The notes under the pieces: generated by a model
What the model was told of the DNA's origin: nothing
What the model saw: the letters and a program-made list of their open reading frames with translations, nothing else
Databases searched by the model: none
Part shown: one piece after another, positions 19,541 through 28,713 of the stretch
Layout: every line of letters begins with the position of its first letter
Position numbering within the stretch: position 1 is the first letter of the stretch
Made by a program: the position numbers and the translations under genes
Assembly: GCA_017404725.1 (NCBI GenBank)
Contig: JAFRBS010000008.1
Span: 1-33,780, forward strand
Direction: 5' to 3'
Source: Candidatus Saccharimonadota bacterium
GTDB taxonomy: Bacteria; Patescibacteriota; Saccharimonadia; Saccharimonadales; Saccharimonadaceae
Length of the DNA stretch: 33,780 nt

Positions 19541-19569
19541 TTGACTTTTTTCATAAAGTGTGCTATAAT
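19541..19569 (+). promoter_or_regulatory. Promoter of the membrane/surface operon
   Basis: TTGACT (19541-19546), 17 bp, TATAAT (19564-19569), with TG extension. The 15 bases up to the -10 box closely resemble the 18542 promoter (both end AAGTGTGCTATAATG), which suggests the two are related. Confidence 0.88.
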
Positions 19570-19595
19570 GGAATTAGTCTAGGTGAGGTGGGCGA

Positions 19596-19616
19596 ATGAA
19601 CTGCCATCACTCATAG
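19596..19616 (+). CDS. Possible leader peptide MNCHHS
   Basis: ATG to TAG, six codons (Met-Asn-Cys-His-His-Ser) inside the P1 hairpin, with a GAGGTGGG stretch just upstream. Two adjacent His codons might allow attenuation by ribosome stalling. It may also be chance. Confidence 0.3.
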   Translation: MNCHHS

Positions 19617-19687
19617 ACGACCATTAAAATCAGATCATCTCAGGTACAATTCGTACCTGATTTTAGTGTATTGCGTATCCACTTTTT

Positions 19688-19715
19688 CAGGAGGCGTAGT
19701 GCACCTCCTGTTTTT
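19688..19715 (+). terminator. Attenuator terminator in the leader
   Basis: CAGGAGG / CCTCCTG stem followed by five T, 60 bases before the start codon at 19773. It would stop transcription before the operon unless disrupted. Confidence 0.75.
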
Positions 19716-19772
19716 ATAAAGAAACTTATAGTTTATATATAAAGACACACTTTTACGAGGAGGTGCATTATT

Positions 19773-20396
19773 ATGCTAGACACATTTCAAACTATAGTGC
19801 TGTTAGTATTTACAGCACTGACGGCGTTCGCCGCTGTCATCATCGTCAATGACTTGGCAAAGCAGGTCGATCCGCACGAAAGAGGCTTAAAACCCTTAAG
19901 TGTAGTGTTGACTTTGGCTCTGCCGATCGCTGCGCAGGCGGCCTTGATTACCTGGGCTCCGAACATATACATTTACGCGGTAATTATAGCCGTAGTATGT
20001 GTTTTCGAGATCCTGACAATCAGGGTGCCGAAGCCAGACCTCGAAAGTCCGGCGAAGGTTGAGTCTCCGACGCAGCGCTTCGTAGCTTGGATCTGTTTCG
20101 CGGCCCCATGGGTCGTCGGCATGATCCTCGCCGGAACGATTCTGCCAGAGGAAAACCCGCTGTACTTCGGCGGAAAGGGGATGCTGATTTATCTCATCCC
20201 ACCTCTCTTGGTATTATTGATCGGGTTCTGCAGGGTCCTTTGGTGCAGAGATGCATACAAAGAGGCTTTAAAGGACTACGAGGCAGTAGAGATGGAAATC
20301 GGCGCTTCTAGCGCCGAGGTAACTGAAATCAGTCGCGAAGAAGGGCTCGAAGAGCTCGCCGCGGAAACTGTTGAGGCCGAACCGGCCGCCTCATGA
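19773..20396 (+). CDS. Hypothetical multi-pass membrane protein
   Basis: A 207-residue protein, not recognised. Five hydrophobic helices are visible (about 4-24, 42-60, 64-82, 104-122 and 132-155), followed by a short basic stretch (RDAYKEALKDYE) and an acidic Glu/Ala-rich C-terminal tail of about 45 residues that should be cytoplasmic or exposed depending on topology. GAGGAGGTGCA precedes the ATG and is the target of the SD-masking helix in the leader. The next gene starts 16 bases after the stop, so the two form an operon. Most likely a partner or anchor of the surface protein encoded next. Confidence 0.8.
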   Translation: MLDTFQTIVLLVFTALTAFAAVIIVNDLAKQVDPHERGLKPLSVVLTLALPIAAQAALITWAPNIYIYAVIIAVVCVFEILTIRVPKPDLESPAKVESPTQRFVAWICFAAPWVVGMILAGTILPEENPLYFGGKGMLIYLIPPLLVLLIGFCRVLWCRDAYKEALKDYEAVEMEIGASSAEVTEISREEGLEELAAETVEAEPAAS

Positions 20397-20412: not shown

Positions 20413-21993
20413 ATGAGCAAAAGCAGAATTGCGGCCGTAATAGTTGCTATGCTGGCGGTCGTAGTGATAGCTGGAATAGCTATTGCTTACGTAACCAGCG
20501 ATAATGGCAACGGGGAGGCCGAGGCAAAGGCGGACGTTACGACGGACGCCGCTGTTGAAGGAACTGAAGATGAGGACATCGACACCGTCGATACGACGGA
20601 TGCCGAGAAAATCGCGGAATTCAAGACTCATCATAGCCGCGGCGCTCTCGAGCGCGAGGCTATAATGAGTTGGTTGCGAAAACATAATATCCCCTTCAAG
20701 AAAAACCAGAAGGGTGAAGTTATTGTTGACGCAACACCGACGTTACGGACGTTGTTCCCGAAGTACGACAACGCTCGGACAAATTCGGCAAAGCGTGCCG
20801 GCCTCAGCGAGCATCCGATCTCGGATGCTCCGGAATACGTCTTTGAAAGTCTAACTGAAGCAGACTTTCGGGCGATTCTCGAGGCCGAGAAAAAGGGTAT
20901 CGGCACCAAGGTAGCAGTAGGCAAGAAATCCTTAGTCCAGCAAGATGTCAGGACCATGGTCCGAAATGTCATCGTTGGACTAGCTCATACCGACCAGATC
21001 TCGGGTTTGCATTTCGGAAACTCGGGTACGGTCTACGAGCTGAGTTCGGCCGTCAAGTTTCTTTTAGACGAGACGGACAAGGCCTGGAAGACAGGCAAAG
21101 GCATTGAGCGCTGGCTCGAGAAGGGTAACGACGGTATATGGTACGCCACTGAGGAATTTGTGGCGAATATTATACCGGTCGTTGCTCAGATCGTAGACGG
21201 CTCCGAGACGAGCGTTGAAGTAGTTTACGCTCAGAAAAATTGGGGCCTGGTTCGTAGCGACAAGATTCAACTGCGTCGTTGCGAATTATCGACACAGCCC
21301 GACAATAGGGTGGCTATCGTGTACCGTCATTATTTTAAAGACGGTACACTAATGGAAACTCTGGCAACTAACGTCAGAGATAGAAGGCCGGAGATTCCGA
21401 CTACGCTGAAAGCAACAAAGAAGGACAACAATAATCCGGACCCGGTAGTCAAGACCACGCCGCGACCGATAGGAACACCGAGACCGGTAGGGACGGCGAA
21501 GCCATTGGATGACCCGAATGCCTCCGGGTATTCGGTCGTTCGAGCTACGTCAACCCCGACCACGACGCCGGCACCAACCTTGACCCCGGCACCAACGACG
21601 ACGCCGTACATACCGGCAACAACCTCAACACCGACACCAGCTCCGGCGAAGAACCCTTCGGCCGCACCGACGGCACCACCGAACCAGAATACTGGTCCGG
21701 GACCAGCGGAGGTAACTCCGCCGCCGACACCGCCGACTGAAGATGAGGCAACCTCGCAATATCAGTCGTCGGCGGCACCTCGGACTGGTGGCACTAGCCA
21801 GCCTGAAGGCAGCTTGTCGGGCCAGCAGGGCGCGCAAACGTCCACTGGCGGCCAGACAACCACCGATACAAGGGATCCAGACGGTGGCAGGACCGAGAAT
21901 AATCAGGCGGAAACGTCTGAGATTCCTCAGCGTGGTTCTGACACCGGAGGACGAGAGAGTAATACAGGGGACCCCATTGGGGCCCCAGACTAA
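20413..21993 (+). CDS. Hypothetical surface protein with Pro/Thr-rich stalk
   Basis: A 526-residue protein of unknown function. An N-terminal membrane helix (about 5-28, uncleaved anchor or signal) is followed by an acidic linker (about 32-60), a soluble domain of about 270 residues (about 65-335, containing WLRKHNIPFKKN and IERWLEKGNDGIWYA), and a long low-complexity tail (about 340-526) rich in Pro, Thr, Ser, Gly and Gln. Such tails usually form extended, often glycosylated stalks, so the protein probably projects from the cell. No LPXTG motif is present. ATG 20413 is preferred over the longer frame (20371) because AAGGGGGG lies just upstream. It follows the membrane-protein gene by 16 bases. 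Confidence 0.78.
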   Translation: MSKSRIAAVIVAMLAVVVIAGIAIAYVTSDNGNGEAEAKADVTTDAAVEGTEDEDIDTVDTTDAEKIAEFKTHHSRGALEREAIMSWLRKHNIPFKKNQKGEVIVDATPTLRTLFPKYDNARTNSAKRAGLSEHPISDAPEYVFESLTEADFRAILEAEKKGIGTKVAVGKKSLVQQDVRTMVRNVIVGLAHTDQISGLHFGNSGTVYELSSAVKFLLDETDKAWKTGKGIERWLEKGNDGIWYATEEFVANIIPVVAQIVDGSETSVEVVYAQKNWGLVRSDKIQLRRCELSTQPDNRVAIVYRHYFKDGTLMETLATNVRDRRPEIPTTLKATKKDNNNPDPVVKTTPRPIGTPRPVGTAKPLDDPNASGYSVVRATSTPTTTPAPTLTPAPTTTPYIPATTSTPTPAPAKNPSAAPTAPPNQNTGPGPAEVTPPPTPPTEDEATSQYQSSAAPRTGGTSQPEGSLSGQQGAQTSTGGQTTTDTRDPDGGRTENNQAETSEIPQRGSDTGGRESNTGDPIGAPD

Positions 21994-22010
21994 GCAATAC
22001 ACTAAACACA

Positions 22011-22034
22011 GGGGCGGACCATCAGGTTCGCCCC
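22011..22034 (+). terminator. Hairpin after the 20413 gene
   Basis: GGGGCGGACC (22011-22020), loop ATCA, GGTTCGCCCC (22025-22034): ten pairs with one G-U. There is no T-run, so termination is uncertain and read-through into the LPXTG gene is possible. Confidence 0.5.
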
Positions 22035-22059
22035 AATCCCAAGAAAGGTGAATTGTGGT

Positions 22060-22135
22060 TGAGATGATCTGATTTTCGTGGCCAAGACGAAAATTAAAAA
22101 TTCGGCTAGCAAAATTTATTAATTAATTTTTAATT
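22060..22135 (+). promoter_or_regulatory. Structured 5' region of the LPXTG gene
   Basis: Begins with a 17-nt segment (22060-22076) exactly complementary to 19626-19642 in the upstream operon leader. ATTTTCGT (22072-22079) pairs with ACGAAAAT (22087-22094), and AATTAAAAATT (22092-22102) pairs with AATTTTTAATT (22125-22135); these share two bases and so compete. No convincing promoter was found in 21994-22153. Confidence 0.55.
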
Positions 22136-22153: not shown

Positions 22154-23416
22154 ATGAGTAAAATCAAATTTATCCCGATGGCCGCCGCTGTTGCGACCCT
22201 CGGCACCGCTCTTGCTACGGCGGTTAATGTAGCAGCTTACGGTCCGGTTGACCGTCCGACTTACACTCTAGAGGATATTAACAAGGCCGCTAGTGAAAAT
22301 CCGGATAAAACAACCGCTGCTTATAAAACTTTTATTGAGCAGAAGAAAGTAGTACTTAACTCGATCACTAATGACGGTGTCATCGGCGATGAGCGCAACT
22401 TCGTTGCGGCTTATGAGGAAGGTAAGAATTGGAACTACGACGAAATTACCGTCGAAGAAGGTAAAACTTACAACGTCACTATGTACATCCACAACAACAG
22501 CCCGCTTAAAACCCAGGCTGTCGCGAACGATGTTAACGCTGTAATTAGCATGCCTCTTGATTACGGCAAAGAGCTCAAAGTCTCTGGGTTCATCAATGCT
22601 GCGAATGCTACCCCGTCGCAGTACTGGGATTCGGTTGTCTTCAAGAGCGCCAATGGCCAGAACTTCTACCTCGACTACGTTGAAGGTTCCGCTACTGAAA
22701 CCTACAACAAAGTTGACGCTAATGGCAACATTATTGAAAAGGGTTTGGTCAAATCCATCTCTGACAAGGTTATCACTAAGAGCGGCGTTTCGCTTGGCGA
22801 CATGCCAGGTTGTTTCGAGTACTCGAAGTATGTAACCATCAAAGTTAAGCCGGTTTTCACCGACGCTAACTTTACCGTCGAGAAGGTTGTCCGTAAGAAC
22901 GGCGACAAAAACTGGGTTGAATCTGTAGATGCCAAGGTCGGCGACAAAATCGACTACCGCATCCACTACAAGAATACCACTGAGGGTCACGTCGACAACG
23001 TTATGTTCAAAGACGTTCTTCCTACTAACATGAAGATCGTTTCTGAAGTTAAACTTTACAACACGGCGAACCCGAACGGCCTTGTTGAGCCAGGCGATAT
23101 CGTCAAAGATGGTATCAACATTGGTGGTTATAACGTTAACGGCGACGCGTGGATTTACTTCACCGCCGAAGTTATCGACAATAACCTCATCTGTGGTAGA
23201 AACACCCTTCGCAACTGGGGTCAGATCGGTGTGGGTAAAATCACCCTCCAGGATTCTGCCGACGTTGTGGTCCAGAAGACTTGTACTTCCGAGACTAAAA
23301 CTGCAACCTCTCTTCCAAAGACTGGTCCAGAAGCAATTGCCGCTGGCGTCCTTGGCGTAGGTTCGGTCGTAACCGCTGCCGGTTACTTCATTGCTAGCCG
23401 CAAACAACTTCGCTAA
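22154..23416 (+). CDS. LPXTG-anchored surface protein
   Basis: A 420-residue secreted protein anchored to the cell wall. It has a signal peptide (1-28, probable cleavage after VAA), an exposed region rich in Asn, Asp and Lys, a DUF11/Cna-like beta domain (about 265-330, from VGDKIDYRIHYKN to DVLPTNMKI), and a complete sorting signal: LPKTG (387-391), a hydrophobic helix and a basic tail ending RKQLR. Sortase would cut between T and G and link it to peptidoglycan. No sortase is encoded in the window. AAAGGAG lies six bases before the ATG. The codon use is highly ordered, which suggests strong expression; it may be an adhesin or pilus-like subunit for host attachment. Confidence 0.88.
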   Translation: MSKIKFIPMAAAVATLGTALATAVNVAAYGPVDRPTYTLEDINKAASENPDKTTAAYKTFIEQKKVVLNSITNDGVIGDERNFVAAYEEGKNWNYDEITVEEGKTYNVTMYIHNNSPLKTQAVANDVNAVISMPLDYGKELKVSGFINAANATPSQYWDSVVFKSANGQNFYLDYVEGSATETYNKVDANGNIIEKGLVKSISDKVITKSGVSLGDMPGCFEYSKYVTIKVKPVFTDANFTVEKVVRKNGDKNWVESVDAKVGDKIDYRIHYKNTTEGHVDNVMFKDVLPTNMKIVSEVKLYNTANPNGLVEPGDIVKDGINIGGYNVNGDAWIYFTAEVIDNNLICGRNTLRNWGQIGVGKITLQDSADVVVQKTCTSETKTATSLPKTGPEAIAAGVLGVGSVVTAAGYFIASRKQLR

Positions 23417-23553: not shown

Positions 23554-24399
23554 ATGGATCCAAATCAAACTCCGCCTCAGGTGGGCGTGAATTCGGATAA
23601 TGTGGGAGCTTCTGCGACCGGGCAGTCGGTTTTTGCGAACGCCCCGAATCGCTTTAAGGACACGACTCCGAAGGGCGACATCATCATCCCGCCGTCCACG
23701 CCTGAAAAGCCGAAGGGGCCTGTAAACAAAAAGCTGATTATCGGCATCATCGCCGCGATTGTCGTCATTATTGTCGCGATTGTTCTAATTGTTGTTTTCT
23801 CTGGTAACAAATCCAGCTCTAACAGCTCAAAATCCAGCAGCTCGAGCTCTAGTTCCGTCAGCACGACCGAAGACGTCCAGGCCGCCTTTAACAAATACGC
23901 GAATTTCATCATCTCCGGCGAAGCCTCGACCAGCCGCATCCCGAGCGAAGATGAGCTCGACGGATATTTGATTGTTTCGAAAATTATCGACCATGATACC
24001 GAATTTATGGATGAGGCAAAAATACTTTTCGACGAATTCTACACAGTATTTGAAGACACGGATATGGAGGAGAACTATCTACTCGTTGAGCAAATAGATT
24101 ATTATAGGCAGACATTTGATTTTCTTTACGAATATAGTAAATCGGACGCGCAGACAGAAGATTTTGTCGCTATGACGGACAATCCGCTTGCCGTTGCATA
24201 CGCGAATGCCAAGACTGCTTACGACGATGCTATGAAAAATAGTGCGAAAGATAAATACGAGCTTCTAGATAAAGTTAATAGTATCGTAGAGACAGCTGAA
24301 GACGATATAATGTTCGAATGCTATAGCATAGATAACGCTTTGTACGGTGACGCGACCAACGATTTAGCAGGGGAAGGGGGGAGTGATGAAGCGAATTAA
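23554..24399 (+). CDS. Hypothetical single-pass membrane protein with Ser linker
   Basis: A 281-residue protein. A Pro-rich cytoplasmic N terminus (about 1-57) precedes one strong membrane helix (about 60-82), a Ser-rich linker (GNKSSSNSSKSSSSSSSS), and an acidic, helical C-terminal domain (about 100-281) expected outside the cell. I do not recognise it. ATG 23554 follows the promoter closely and has no ribosome binding site; the longer frame from 23449 crosses the terminator and is rejected. Its end overlaps the start of the VirB6-like gene, so the two are translated together and may form one membrane complex. Codon use shifts from host-like to AT-rich at about 23950. Confidence 0.82.
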   Translation: MDPNQTPPQVGVNSDNVGASATGQSVFANAPNRFKDTTPKGDIIIPPSTPEKPKGPVNKKLIIGIIAAIVVIIVAIVLIVVFSGNKSSSNSSKSSSSSSSSVSTTEDVQAAFNKYANFIISGEASTSRIPSEDELDGYLIVSKIIDHDTEFMDEAKILFDEFYTVFEDTDMEENYLLVEQIDYYRQTFDFLYEYSKSDAQTEDFVAMTDNPLAVAYANAKTAYDDAMKNSAKDKYELLDKVNSIVETAEDDIMFECYSIDNALYGDATNDLAGEGGSDEAN

Positions 24400-27300
24400 A
24401 ACTGCCATGTTGGTAGCCATGGTTGCAATGATGTCAGTTTTCGGCGCCCTAATAACCGTAAACAGCGTACACGCTATCACCGTCAATGATTTGAAAGACA
24501 GATTTGTAGCCAGAGGCTTTGAGAAATGCTACAAGGGCCACAACAATGGGCAGTATATCATGACTGGTGATAAACTATTCCCTAATCATGTGTTTGGCTG
24601 GAAGACGTTAATCCCTAATGATGGGGAAATTGTAGGCTTGAGTCCAGAATATGCTAGCAGCGATCAACTCACCTGTGCTGAATTATTTACAGACTATGCC
24701 AAAATTTCGGTAACAGAATATTCAAGCAATGATACTCCAGATGCGACGAAAGTTACACCGGTTCTAAATGCTCTCGGTTTTAAGCCTGCGGAGTCATCAG
24801 ATAAGCGCGAGTGTGAGGATTTTAATTTTAGCACAGAAGATGAAAACACGAAGTCGATTAGCACCGATCAAAGCAAAATTATCAAACTGCAGGTTTGCTC
24901 GGATGTGTCAAAAAATGGCACGATGAATAGTCATATGTATCAATCACCTGCAATAACTAAGTTGAATGATAGCGGAGCAACCCTATCTTTCGAAGTAACT
25001 GACCAAAGCGTAAACGGCAGAGATGCACTAGCCTTAAGATGGTCTAACCAAAATGATCTTTTTAAACTAAGTCCAGAAGTAACATATGTACCTGGTAGCA
25101 CTAAGTGGAGCGATTTTGTTTCTAAGCTCGCATCGGCCCTAAATAATTGGAAAATTGGTAGTTATAGTGACGATAACAGCTGCGCTGGTCTATGCGGTTA
25201 TTATTTCTTGAACCATAATTCGGTTAATTCGAATGAAAGTAGCGCTACAGAATATCAAATTGACCGGGATTACTATAAGACTGCCTACGAACGAACAGGA
25301 AAGAGCTACCCGTCGCCGCTAACATTCACCAAGCAGGAACAGGCGGCACTTTACCAGGATTATCTGGTCTCCTATTATGGAATGGAGACCGCAGAGGGCA
25401 GCTGTTCTTCTAGTGGTAGCCCAATAAATAAAGATGGCGTGTTAGACACTAATACTTGGCAGACGGCTAAAGTTTATGATGCCGATGGAAAGTTAAAACG
25501 CTGCTATGTCCGTTTCACGAACCATACAAGCGATGAAGTATACGGATTAAAAGCGCTCGTTCCAGCAATGGTGGATGATGGCAAGATTGGTCTTTCAGAC
25601 ATTATTAAATGGTTGAATGATAATGGGCCAGACAGCATCCCTAGTGATTTAGCGTCTAGTATCGGCCAGCCAGCCGAAAGCGAAACTGAAAAGACCGAAG
25701 ACGACAACCCCAGCACAACCTGTTTCGACGGTGGCGGCGCGCTCGGCTGGGTACTCTGCCCGCTTCTTGAAGGCGCATCTTGGGCCGTGAACCAAATTTA
25801 CTCCGGATTTATCGAGCCGTCCTTGACCATTAACGCGAATCTGCTCGCCGTCAACGACAACAACGACACTAACGACCAGAGCGCCTACGACGTTTGGCAA
25901 ATTTTCCAGACCTTCGCGAACATCGCCTTCGCGATTATGATCCTTGTCGTGATTATTTCCCAGCTCACCGGCGTCGGCATCGACAACTACGGCATCAAAC
26001 GCATTCTCCCGCGCTTAATTATCTCCGCGCTGCTCATTAACCTCTCGTTTATCATTTGCCAGCTCGCTGTCGATTTGTCCAACATCCTCGGCGTTAGCTT
26101 GAAAAATCTCTTCGACAGCCTCGGCCCATCGGCCGTAATCTCCGGAGGCACAGCCACGGGCAACACCGCCGCTTGGGTCACGATCATCGTCAGCGTTGTC
26201 GCCGTCGGCGGCGCCTTCCTCGCGCTCGGCCTCGGCGTGATTATTCCGATTCTTGTCGCCGCACTCTCCGCCCTGATCGCCGTCTTCTTCCTCTTCCTCG
26301 TCCTCGCCGCCCGTCAAGCCGCGATCGTCATCCTCGTCGTAATTTCGCCGCTCGCTCTTGTTATGTATATGCTCCCGAACACGAAAAAGTACTTCGACAA
26401 ATTCGTGAAAATTTTCGCTACGCTCCTCATCGTCTACCCAATCTGCGGCCTCGTCATGGGCGGCGGCAACTTCGCCTCGCGCGTTCTCCTAGTCGCCGGC
26501 GGTGCCTCCGCGGACAGCTTCAGCGCCGACGGTTCTGGCTTCTTCTACCAAATCTCCGCAGTTTTGGTCAGCATCGTCCCGTTCTTCTTCATCCCGTCGC
26601 TGGTCAAAAACTCCCTCGCCGGCCTCGGCAACATCGGCGCAAAAATCAGCGGCATCGGCTCCAAAGTTTCCGGCCGCGCAACCAAGACTTCGCGTGGCGC
26701 ACTCGAAAAAACCAGGCTGGGCGATCCATCAAGATTCAGCCGCTGGTCCAAGGTTCGCCAAGCTGAACGCGTTGGTGAAAAGGAACGTCGTTCCGCCCTT
26801 CGTCGCGCGCAAGCCCGCGTAAATAAATATAGCAAGAGAGACAGCGAGAGTTTGAGTCCACTCGATCGTCGACGTTTTGCCACGGCTCAAGCTACGGTAG
26901 ACAAATTAGAAGATGAAGAATTTGCCGCAGATACCAGCCTTGCCATGATGCAATACGGTAATTCTTCAGAAAGCGAAATTAAGAACGCCTGGAACAAGGC
27001 CTTTGATACCGGAAATAAGAGTCAGCTCTCCGCGCTTACGAGCGTTATGGAATCGCGTTTCGGTTCAGCTGCTGCGAAAATGATTGGTAGCGAACTATCG
27101 AAGAAGAAGGGGATTGACAGCGATAAAAATTATCAAGATTCCTTGGAAGCCTTGCAGACTTATGCTAATAAGAATGGCAAGTTCGCCGGGGCTCTCAAAG
27201 ATAAGGCGCTGGATGCTCACAGTATGATCACGAGCGGCGGTCGAGACGAAAAAGGAGAATTCCAAGATCTCGAACACTTTACCAAGCAAATCCCAGAGCT

Positions 27301-27808
27301 TGCAACGAAGGCTTCAGACTGGCAGAACTTTAGCGCTGCTACCTTTAAACGCGCTGAAGCAGCCGGAGTATTGGCTACTCCTAAAGGCCAGGCTATGATG
27401 CAACAACTTAGAGATAGCGAAAGCCCGGCTATTAGAGACGGCATTATGTCTGACGCTGAAATTCGTGCAATCGTGATGCGCAATGCTGGCCCAAGTCCAA
27501 GCGCTGGCGGCTCTACGACCCCGCCTCCTACCCCTGGCCCAACTGGCCCAACCGGTCCAGCTCCAACCCCAACTGGCCCAACCCCTACTGGCCGCCCAAA
27601 AAATGGCTCTTCTGGTGGTACGGGTAACAACCCGCTCGGCGGATCTTCCGCCCCTAACCCTAATAGCCTTAACCCCGAAGGGAGCGAGTTCAAGATAGAT
27701 CACAGCAACCAAAACTCCCCAGACCGCAACGGCTCAAATAACTCCGATACTTTTAGTGGCAGCGACGACTACAACGACTACTACAACAACGGCGGAAACC
27801 TCGAATAG
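24386..27808 (+). CDS. VirB6/TrbL-like type IV secretion membrane protein
   Basis: A 1140-residue protein with a signal peptide (about 1-29), a large extracellular N-terminal region (about 30-445), and a TrbL/VirB6-like membrane block (about 500-765) with a GVGIDNYGIKRILPRL segment, several helices rich in Ile, Val, Leu and Ala, and an aqueous-pore-like segment RQAAIVILVVISPLALVMYMLPNTKKYFDKF. A charged helical region (about 770-1030) and a Pro/Thr/Gly-rich tail with GPTGPTGP repeats follow. VirB6-type proteins form the inner-membrane channel of type IV secretion systems; CPR genomes carry large versions. The start is ATG 24386, or GTG 24383 just before it, after GGAAGGGGGGAG. Codon use is foreign-like before about 25690 and after about 26810 but host-like between. 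Confidence 0.82.
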   Translation: MKRIKTAMLVAMVAMMSVFGALITVNSVHAITVNDLKDRFVARGFEKCYKGHNNGQYIMTGDKLFPNHVFGWKTLIPNDGEIVGLSPEYASSDQLTCAELFTDYAKISVTEYSSNDTPDATKVTPVLNALGFKPAESSDKRECEDFNFSTEDENTKSISTDQSKIIKLQVCSDVSKNGTMNSHMYQSPAITKLNDSGATLSFEVTDQSVNGRDALALRWSNQNDLFKLSPEVTYVPGSTKWSDFVSKLASALNNWKIGSYSDDNSCAGLCGYYFLNHNSVNSNESSATEYQIDRDYYKTAYERTGKSYPSPLTFTKQEQAALYQDYLVSYYGMETAEGSCSSSGSPINKDGVLDTNTWQTAKVYDADGKLKRCYVRFTNHTSDEVYGLKALVPAMVDDGKIGLSDIIKWLNDNGPDSIPSDLASSIGQPAESETEKTEDDNPSTTCFDGGGALGWVLCPLLEGASWAVNQIYSGFIEPSLTINANLLAVNDNNDTNDQSAYDVWQIFQTFANIAFAIMILVVIISQLTGVGIDNYGIKRILPRLIISALLINLSFIICQLAVDLSNILGVSLKNLFDSLGPSAVISGGTATGNTAAWVTIIVSVVAVGGAFLALGLGVIIPILVAALSALIAVFFLFLVLAARQAAIVILVVISPLALVMYMLPNTKKYFDKFVKIFATLLIVYPICGLVMGGGNFASRVLLVAGGASADSFSADGSGFFYQISAVLVSIVPFFFIPSLVKNSLAGLGNIGAKISGIGSKVSGRATKTSRGALEKTRLGDPSRFSRWSKVRQAERVGEKERRSALRRAQARVNKYSKRDSESLSPLDRRRFATAQATVDKLEDEEFAADTSLAMMQYGNSSESEIKNAWNKAFDTGNKSQLSALTSVMESRFGSAAAKMIGSELSKKKGIDSDKNYQDSLEALQTYANKNGKFAGALKDKALDAHSMITSGGRDEKGEFQDLEHFTKQIPELATKASDWQNFSAATFKRAEAAGVLATPKGQAMMQQLRDSESPAIRDGIMSDAEIRAIVMRNAGPSPSAGGSTTPPPTPGPTGPTGPAPTPTGPTPTGRPKNGSSGGTGNNPLGGSSAPNPNSLNPEGSEFKIDHSNQNSPDRNGSNNSDTFSGSDDYNDYYNNGGNLE

Positions 27809-27846: not shown

Positions 27847-28713
27847 CTAACTTTTCAGAACCTTCTTCCACTTATCCGGAAAACCCATTTTTCGGATGTC
27901 CGCTGCCGGATAGCGTCTAATCAGTTTGTTCAAATCTCTGACGAATTTTCGCCATTCCTTATCATTCTGCAAAATGTTTTTCATGCAATATAGGACTGCG
28001 AAGATACGAAAATTTGGTAAGCCAGCGTCCTTTGGTATTTTCGGAGTTTTATCTAGACGCACGTTATATAACCGCCCGTAATGTGCACAGATGTTCCGAA
28101 CATAGGCGATACTTTCTATCCAGCTTTCCAAATAAAGATATGGGACGTTATACTCATCAGCTATGGCCGATTTATCTGTTCCATGTAAATTCTTAAAAAA
28201 CTTGGATAGAGTGCCAAAGCTTATAATTTCAGCGATGGCGTAAAGTGGCAATTCGCCACCCCTGTAGTTATATAAAAAATTTTTAACGATTGGCGAACGG
28301 CTGTTTCTGACTATCTCCCGATTCACTTCTTCTATAAACAGATCGTGATATTTTTTATTGCGGAAATGTGCACTATTTTTGTATCCCGTAGAGCCGTACT
28401 TTACGGAAAAATAATTTACGATTTTTGTGCGCAGACTGATCTCAATACGCTCAGTTTGGTAGACAATCAGTTCCCGCAACTCAGTATTGAAATTATACAA
28501 CTCAACTATGTCTTCAAATTTGGTTTTACCGTCGTAGCTGCCATTTTTTACCTTGAAGTCCAGACTATAGGCTTTAATTAATCTGTAGTACGATATTTCA
28601 TTAAGTGTCTTTGCGGCTTTCTGTTCGTTCTTAAATTTAAGGTCTAGCTTTTTGAGGTTCTGTATTTGCCCGGGAATGTCAAGGGATTTAGGAGTGGGTT
28701 TTCTGGTGGGCAT
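27847..28713 (-). CDS. Abi_2-family abortive-infection protein (HEPN)
   Basis: A 288-residue protein of the Abi_2 (AbiD/AbiF) family, linked to phage exclusion by cell dormancy or death. Family features: the N-terminal DIPGQIQNLKKLDLKF stretch, SYYRLIKAYSLDF, and the core helix RELIVYQTERIEISLRTKI. The HEPN nuclease motif R-x4-H is visible as RNICAH (R206, H211), followed by YGRLYN. HEPN proteins usually cleave RNA. AAGGAGG lies close before the ATG. It has its own promoter and a hairpin at the RNA 5' end, which fits reports of structured RNAs next to abiF genes. It is the only clear defence gene in the window. AT-rich codon use suggests transfer. Confidence 0.88.
   Translation of the reverse strand: MPTRKPTPKSLDIPGQIQNLKKLDLKFKNEQKAAKTLNEISYYRLIKAYSLDFKVKNGSYDGKTKFEDIVELYNFNTELRELIVYQTERIEISLRTKIVNYFSVKYGSTGYKNSAHFRNKKYHDLFIEEVNREIVRNSRSPIVKNFLYNYRGGELPLYAIAEIISFGTLSKFFKNLHGTDKSAIADEYNVPYLYLESWIESIAYVRNICAHYGRLYNVRLDKTPKIPKDAGLPNFRIFAVLYCMKNILQNDKEWRKFVRDLNKLIRRYPAADIRKMGFPDKWKKVLKS

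Follow-up and report, generated by a model that had tools for sequence, protein, structure and literature searches.

Long-range regulatory pairing within bacterial mRNAs is known from few single examples, and backing by covariation is rare. The toxin mRNA hok adopts a long-range fold between its 5' and 3' regions, is activated by 3' processing and is controlled by the Sok antisense RNA. In antisense-RNA attenuation, as in pT181 and pIP501, an antisense segment removes the antiterminator strand so that the terminator forms. The chbBC intergenic decoy and the SroC sponge target separate trans-acting sRNAs. The closest known system is the icaR mRNA of Staphylococcus aureus, the 3' UTR of which pairs with the 5' UTR, masks the SD and forms a duplex that is cut by RNase III (PMC3868564). 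The complementarity comprises about 40 nt of the 5' UTR, and cis versus trans action was left open by the authors (PMC3868564).

The window analysed here, i.e. the whole stretch of 33,780 nt at positions 1 to 33,780 of contig JAFRBS010000008.1, derives from the genome of a Candidatus Saccharimonadota bacterium (739 kb, 97.9 % complete). It contains an operon whose 5' leader is, as in icaR, predicted to pair with a downstream untranslated stretch of the same mRNA (Table 1). In contrast to icaR, where the 3' UTR of a single gene pairs directly at the SD, the partner here is intergenic, lies within a polycistronic operon at a distance of about 2 kb, has its start at a stop codon, and pairs in two blocks around a four-way junction upstream of the SD (19758-19767 lies outside the duplex), the pairing being conserved with covariation over more than 90 species. 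The control proposed below would share with hok a delayed, structure-timed action via pairing of two mRNA parts; the toxin, 3' processing and Sok antisense parts were, however, not seen here. As in pT181 and pIP501, the antisense segment can take an antiterminator strand, yet it is encoded on the same strand inside the operon and without a promoter, and a terminator is present in a minority of leaders only. Pairing of an intergenic stretch of polycistronic mRNA with a regulatory RNA is shared with chbBC and SroC, whereas the only genomic complement here is the operon's own leader. A literature search, with subscription literature outside its reach, found no description of leader-gap pairing. 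Taken as a whole, the leader probably forms the 5' half of a long-range RNA structure that consists of two parts, acts in cis and would shut off the upstream genes with a delay; the 3' half, composed of I1, a GC hairpin, I4 and I5, resides in the gap starting at the stop codon of gene 2.

Table 1. Features of the leader, the operon genes and the gap between genes 2 and 3 (window positions)
Feature	Position	Strand	Remarks
Sigma-70-type promoter TTGACT-N17-TATAAT	19541-19569	+	-35 at 19541-19546, -10 at 19564-19569, 17-nt spacer
Predicted transcription start (A19576) and P1 hairpin	19576-19618	+	P1 at 19577-19618; closing helix GUCUA...UAGAC
GACGACCAUUAAAA segment	19616-19629	+	Near-invariant, single-stranded, part of leader core
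Leader core strand (including P2 5' arm and loop)	19626-19652	+	Pairs with 22050-22076; unique complement, compensatory changes
P2 hairpin UCAGGUAC-AAUUC-GUACCUGA	19640-19660	+	Opened in predicted long-range duplex
Block B	19662-19674	+	Pairs with 21994-22006; also 5' strand of antiterminator-like helix
Antiterminator-like helix, 15 bp	19666-19704	+	19666-19680 with 19690-19704; competes with terminator-like hairpin
Terminator-like hairpin CAGGAGG/CCUCCUG plus U5	19688-19715	+	Hairpin at 19688-19710; lineage-limited
SD-masking helix, perfect 10 bp	19700-19767	+	19700-19709 with 19758-19767; covers SD of the 207-aa gene
Gene 1, 207-aa membrane protein	19773-20396	+	Sequence not conserved
Gene 2, 526-aa protein	20413-21993	+	N-terminal TM, Pro/Thr-rich C-terminus
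I1, complement of block B	21994-22006	+	Directly after gene 2 stop codon
GC-rich hairpin between I1 and I4	22011-22034	+	Counterpart of P2 in long-range junction
I4, complement of leader core	22050-22076	+	
I5, conserved ...AAGACGAAAATTAAAAATTCGGCTAGCAAAA	22080-22114	+	Hairpin CGAA...UUCG, loop resembling leader core
Gene 3, 420-aa DUF11 surface protein	22154-23416	+	LPKTG-type C-terminal anchor

The near-consensus promoter and the upstream element of P1 and P2, both proposed in a first-pass annotation made from the sequence of the window alone, were borne out. A promoter of the form TTGAC-N17-TAnAAT was present in all 24 loci retrieved by a pattern search for the leader core, each with AGUC at the predicted +1, and was detected at 90 of 93 leaders. 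P1 was folded by every leader inspected, its sequence being variable and its closure GUC/GAC. Promoter, +1 AGUC, P1, core and P2 are kept genus-wide, and conservation of the remainder is uneven. The 200-nt leader has a minimum free energy of -65.1 kcal/mol versus -40.6 (s.d. 4.0) for 200 dinucleotide shuffles, none of which was as low (z = -6.1), and is therefore structured beyond chance. A leader peptide (MNCHHS within P1, or from the AUG at +6), and with it ribosome stalling on such a peptide, was rejected because homologues keep neither start nor frame. Two further loci of the genome (L002, G000:C17 about 10698; L003, G000:C19 about 42376) have only the promoter stretch TTGACTTTTTT...TATAAT in common with the leader.

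BLAST of the leader across the genus retrieved 38 of 174 species with the core GACGACC(A/G)UUAAAA-N-UCAUC(C/U)CAG. The covariance search that had been suggested for the leader, conducted with a model built from the 24 pattern loci, matched 152 of the 174 species of this Saccharibacteria genus and 104 of its 110 good genomes, and a broader model detected the family also, weakly, in the sister genera g47, g48 and g69. Among genome contigs, the core pattern occurred in Saccharibacteria records only, mostly Candidatus Saccharibacteria MAGs from ruminant gut, and no match was obtained in viral contigs, on which grounds a mobile or phage element was rejected. Neither the leader nor the gap element, both searched with relaxed thresholds, matched Rfam 15 at the gathering threshold; the best sub-threshold matches were unrelated eukaryotic microRNA and snoRNA models with E values of 0.4 or worse. 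The leader thus represents a new RNA family. Weak covariance-model matches in other families of the order (e.g. G267, G227, G232) lack the promoter-core-partner arrangement and were dismissed as chance. Six matches to the leader model were observed in one sister-genus genome (G431).

Self-comparison revealed the reverse complement of the leader core, plus a second block, in the gap before gene 3 of nearly every genome. In the window, I4 pairs with the core with one mismatch and a few G-U pairs at a distance of about 2.4 kb, and I1 pairs perfectly with block B; a search of this genome for the core complement with up to 3 mismatches allowed yielded only the gap and the leader itself. This downstream partner was missed by the first-pass annotation because it lies outside the region that the latter considered. 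Across the 96 genomes scanned, all 93 with enough downstream sequence possess one clear partner per leader, 1.2-3.0 kb away. Core and partner score 50.8 on average, versus 25.6 for the next-best site of the same genome and 39.6 for swapped genomes; these means cover the 91 genomes scoring at least 40, and scores of 38 and 39 were obtained at this place for the remaining two. None of 10000 permutations reached the observed mean, although permutation tests are inflated by genome kinship, which the tree and slid controls described below lessen and do not remove. For block B, which is variable in sequence and matches only its own partner, pairing with I1 scored 24.8 versus 17.3 for permuted partners (s.d. 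0.38) and 15.7 for other windows of the same genomes. Cofolding of separate strands yielded a gain of -29.3 kcal/mol for own pairs versus -11.6 for swapped pairs (-32.5 in the window). In every genome, those of the sister genera included, one or two genes lie in cis between the paired strands, and in the sister genera the pairing is kept with different letters, e.g. UCAUUACAG opposite CUAUUGUAAUGA in G431.

Covariation was assessed with concatenated leader and gap strands of 59 distinct pairs. In this alignment, 93.9 % of the cells are paired, 16 of 24 positions changed on both sides and 146 cells are doubly changed, versus 28-50 % paired and 4-33 doubly changed cells in slid controls with the partner shifted by 1-3 bases. 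Columns 3-50 (C-G 31, A-U 28) and 8-45 (G-C 44, A-U 15) show no failures. About 47 independent double compensatory changes, spanning core positions 6 to 29, were reconstructed on a tree of gene 3 proteins, i.e. of a gene of the same operon, and most central core positions were never unpaired in this reconstruction. Swaps confined to single genomes include A-U to U-A (G030), U-A to A-U (G192) and C-G to U-A (G026). At core position 22, the leader G is opposite U in 55 cases and C in 36, never unpaired, with 15 changes inferred on the tree and none to unpaired. Pairing of the core with I4 and of block B with I1 is, on this comparative evidence, almost certainly real and kept by compensatory change, both within the genus and in three genomes of sister genera. 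Core positions 19 and 16 (19639 and 19636) often carry A.C or C.A mismatches (30 and 22 of 91 genomes, respectively), which may serve in recognition or protect the duplex from RNase III.

I1 starts where the gene 2 stop codon ends (median +1 nt), its start falling between -5 and +15 nt in 87 % of cases versus 24 % with shuffled block B. Downstream of I1 come the GC-rich hairpin, then the core complement, and finally AAGACGAAAAUUAAAAAUUCGGCUAGC, a conserved segment that forms a small hairpin and resembles the leader core; I5 may compete with the leader for I4. Within this segment (22080-22114), the conserved AAGACGAAAATTAAAAATTCGGCTAGC before gene 3 includes GACGAnnATTAAnAA, common to the leader core, and may bind the same factor as the core or act as an internal decoy. 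Promoter-like sites were found at the gap in 4 of 93 genomes on the plus and 1 of 93 on the minus strand, versus 90 of 93 at the leaders. With no promoter at the gap and no second site in the genome, the partner is presumably transcribed by read-through as part of the same mRNA. The second half occupies, in G397, the 3' UTR of the gene that is bracketed, immediately ahead of a terminator, and in G043 it is followed by an unrelated gene with its own promoter-like sequence; the pair therefore brackets the first gene or genes independently of gene 3. Control of the gene 3 SD by I1 and I4 was rejected, its predicted accessibility being unaffected by either. Inverted covariance-model matches had suggested a further copy of the leader on the minus strand; this was likewise rejected, as pairing in the plus-strand reading tolerates G-U, a minus-strand promoter is absent and GACGACC is not kept. 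Two variant arrangements were observed among further leaders. In G458 (L204), a very strong leader/partner pair of -33 kcal/mol, with the partner at +567 from the leader, brackets a 131-aa ORF that is unrelated to the genus operon and is followed by a promoter-like TTGACA. In G431 (L203), a core complement about 3.3 kb past the leader is succeeded by another, though imperfect, copy of the leader core in sense orientation.

Genes were called as ORFs with an SD and are not curated. Gene order is kept, comprising a short membrane protein that is optional, a roughly 550-aa protein, the gap and the DUF11 gene 3, beyond which more large membrane or surface genes follow in most genomes. No relative of the 207-aa gene 1 protein was found in 100 genomes, and relatedness among the short first genes behind the leader is confined to 53 of 820 pairs; in 50 of 93 genomes, gene 2 is the first gene behind the leader. 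Gene 3, unlike gene 1 upstream, is well conserved over the genus (91 of 92 related), and no solved relative of its protein was found. A profile match of gene 2 to a G397 protein is driven by low complexity and was not relied on. Seemingly inverted gene 3 ORFs are antisense ORFs over the normal gene, and an invertible segment was therefore rejected. Next in the operon, and present in most genomes read, is a 1141-aa multi-TM protein (24383-27808), VirB6-like by eye and without match in Pfam, NCBIfam or PHROG. Downstream of the operon and before folD, an Abi_2 family (abortive-infection-like) gene is located at 27847-28713, in place of which several relatives possess a minus-strand ORF of roughly 260 aa, probably folD.

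The leader had been regarded in the first-pass annotation as a candidate new riboswitch or attenuator with two-layer control, in which the upstream element could be the sensor and a terminator stem competes with an SD-masking helix. The structured leader, its mutually exclusive helices and its status as a new family stand; the core, however, is not primarily an aptamer or sensor, being mainly one strand of a long-range duplex with its partner in the same operon. A 15-bp antiterminator-like helix competes with the hairpin and co-varies (own pairing 16.2 versus 13.4 permuted, s.d. 0.4, 50 leaders), and in folding of the window RNA up to the U-tract it was preferred over the hairpin. The terminator stem is present in the window with T5, but a T-run after a GC hairpin is present in only 14 of 93 leaders, and in most homologues the stem is lost as a terminator without compensating changes. 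As regards transcription attenuation, a mutually exclusive antiterminator is thus present, and a conserved intrinsic terminator is not. The 10-bp SD-masking helix likewise exists in the window, but pairing of the hairpin 3' arm with its own SD scored 13.7 across homologues, barely above the 13.0 of swapped leaders (s.d. 0.27) and within reach of some permutations, so that its specificity does not clearly exceed what would be expected of any CCUCC arm.

According to the proposed mechanism, the leader would be made first and fold locally into P1, P2 and the antiterminator-like helix, allowing RNA polymerase and ribosomes to enter genes 1 and 2. Once transcribed and free of the ribosome terminating on gene 2, the second half would invade the leader, open P2 and take block B. 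In the window, loss of block B would destroy the antiterminator-like helix and free the CCUCC arm of the hairpin to mask the first SD, and the long duplex may be open to RNase III. The upstream genes would thereby be switched off in a delayed and self-timed manner, with gene 3 onward unaffected. Repression as the direction of the effect is the least certain step and is put forward tentatively, at slightly less than even confidence. Blocking of block B is predicted to raise the opening cost of the SD by 3.1 kcal/mol in the window and by 3.4-4.4 kcal/mol in the two nearest relatives. Across 93 leaders, blocking of core and block B made the gene 1 SD easier to access in 31 and harder in 12, versus 35 and 5 for random blocks; no family-wide sign of an effect on access to this SD was found, and repression is therefore not a prediction for the family as a whole, since the effect has no common direction. 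The latch could conceivably also read translation, the downstream half closing only when no ribosome terminates at the gene 2 stop, which is a possible but rather doubtful extension.

Action in cis rather than in trans is likely, given that the sole partner invariably belongs to the same read-through transcript. Sequence evidence of the same kind would also be expected if two mRNAs, or an mRNA and a processed fragment, interacted in trans. In such a case, the role of a small RNA would fall to the leader terminated at about 140 nt or to a fragment processed from the gap between genes 2 and 3, the gap RNA binding nascent leaders, removing block B from the antiterminator-like helix and causing premature termination in the style of antisense attenuation. 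Block B is indeed the antiterminator strand with I1 as alternative partner, the window leader carries a T5 terminator, and pairing is equally strong in trans when the strands are cofolded separately. The pairing, however, is universal while T-run terminators are confined to 14 of 93 leaders, the gap is devoid of a promoter, and one or two genes are bracketed in cis in every genome down to the sister genera, making a small RNA acting in trans unlikely. Bracketing also bears on a processing or stability element, in which the duplex would recruit RNase III or protect the 5' end and split the gene 1-2 mRNA from that of genes 3-5, with the surface protein of gene 3 being made in larger amounts. A 27-position duplex plus a 13-bp helix would be a good RNase III substrate, the gap sits between the upstream genes and the conserved surface-protein gene, and the icaR duplex is cut by this enzyme (PMC3868564). 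In G397 and G043, on the other hand, the bracketed gene carries the second half at its 3' end and is followed by no gene 3 homologue, and separation of gene 3 is therefore not the ancestral role. A processing function is accordingly considered somewhat improbable as the explanation; it is compatible with the cis-acting shut-off and does not exclude it.

A leader binding a ligand or protein, with GACGACCAUUAAAA and P1/P2 forming the aptamer or protein site and the gap complement being secondary, would account for the near-invariance of GACGACCAUUAAAA outside the duplex, and recurrence of a similar GACGAnnAUUAAnAA motif in I5 might point to a common factor. The strand that co-varies with I4, however, is itself the best-conserved portion of the core, many leaders have no recognisable expression platform, Rfam yielded no match, and a ligand site alone leaves the covariation with a partner 2 kb away unexplained; this reading is very unlikely, although a small-molecule or protein ligand may act on the conserved GACGACCAUUAAAA segment. 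It is scarcely credible that the blocks act at the DNA level as an inverted repeat, i.e. as a recombination site, a two-site operator or gene-converted copies. They are inverted copies, and gene conversion could mimic covariation, but the partner tolerates G-U with other departures being rare, and toggling of core position 22 between G-C and G-U only, without ever being unpaired, points to RNA pairing rather than gene conversion of DNA. Furthermore, genes 1-3 share one orientation without sign of inversion, an operator would keep its sequence instead of co-varying, and the blocks are broken up by unrelated hairpins.

The two-block pairing over about 2 kb, with some 47 inferred compensatory changes in more than 90 species, ranks among the better-attested cases of long-range regulatory pairing. 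An apparent "riboswitch core" proved here to belong to a duplex with a distant partner, and a check of this kind may be worthwhile for further orphan leader motifs. If the proposal is true, a phylogenetically deep, co-varying regulatory structure of more than 2 kb exists in a bacterial mRNA, and it does so in a Patescibacterial lineage with little-studied RNA regulation. For Saccharibacteria, which are reduced epibionts, this would represent a new class of cis-regulation ahead of an envelope and surface operon. A latch that also reads translation would sense the progress of transcription and the flow of ribosomes through genes 1 and 2, and would thereby set the ratio of the upstream envelope proteins to the conserved surface protein.
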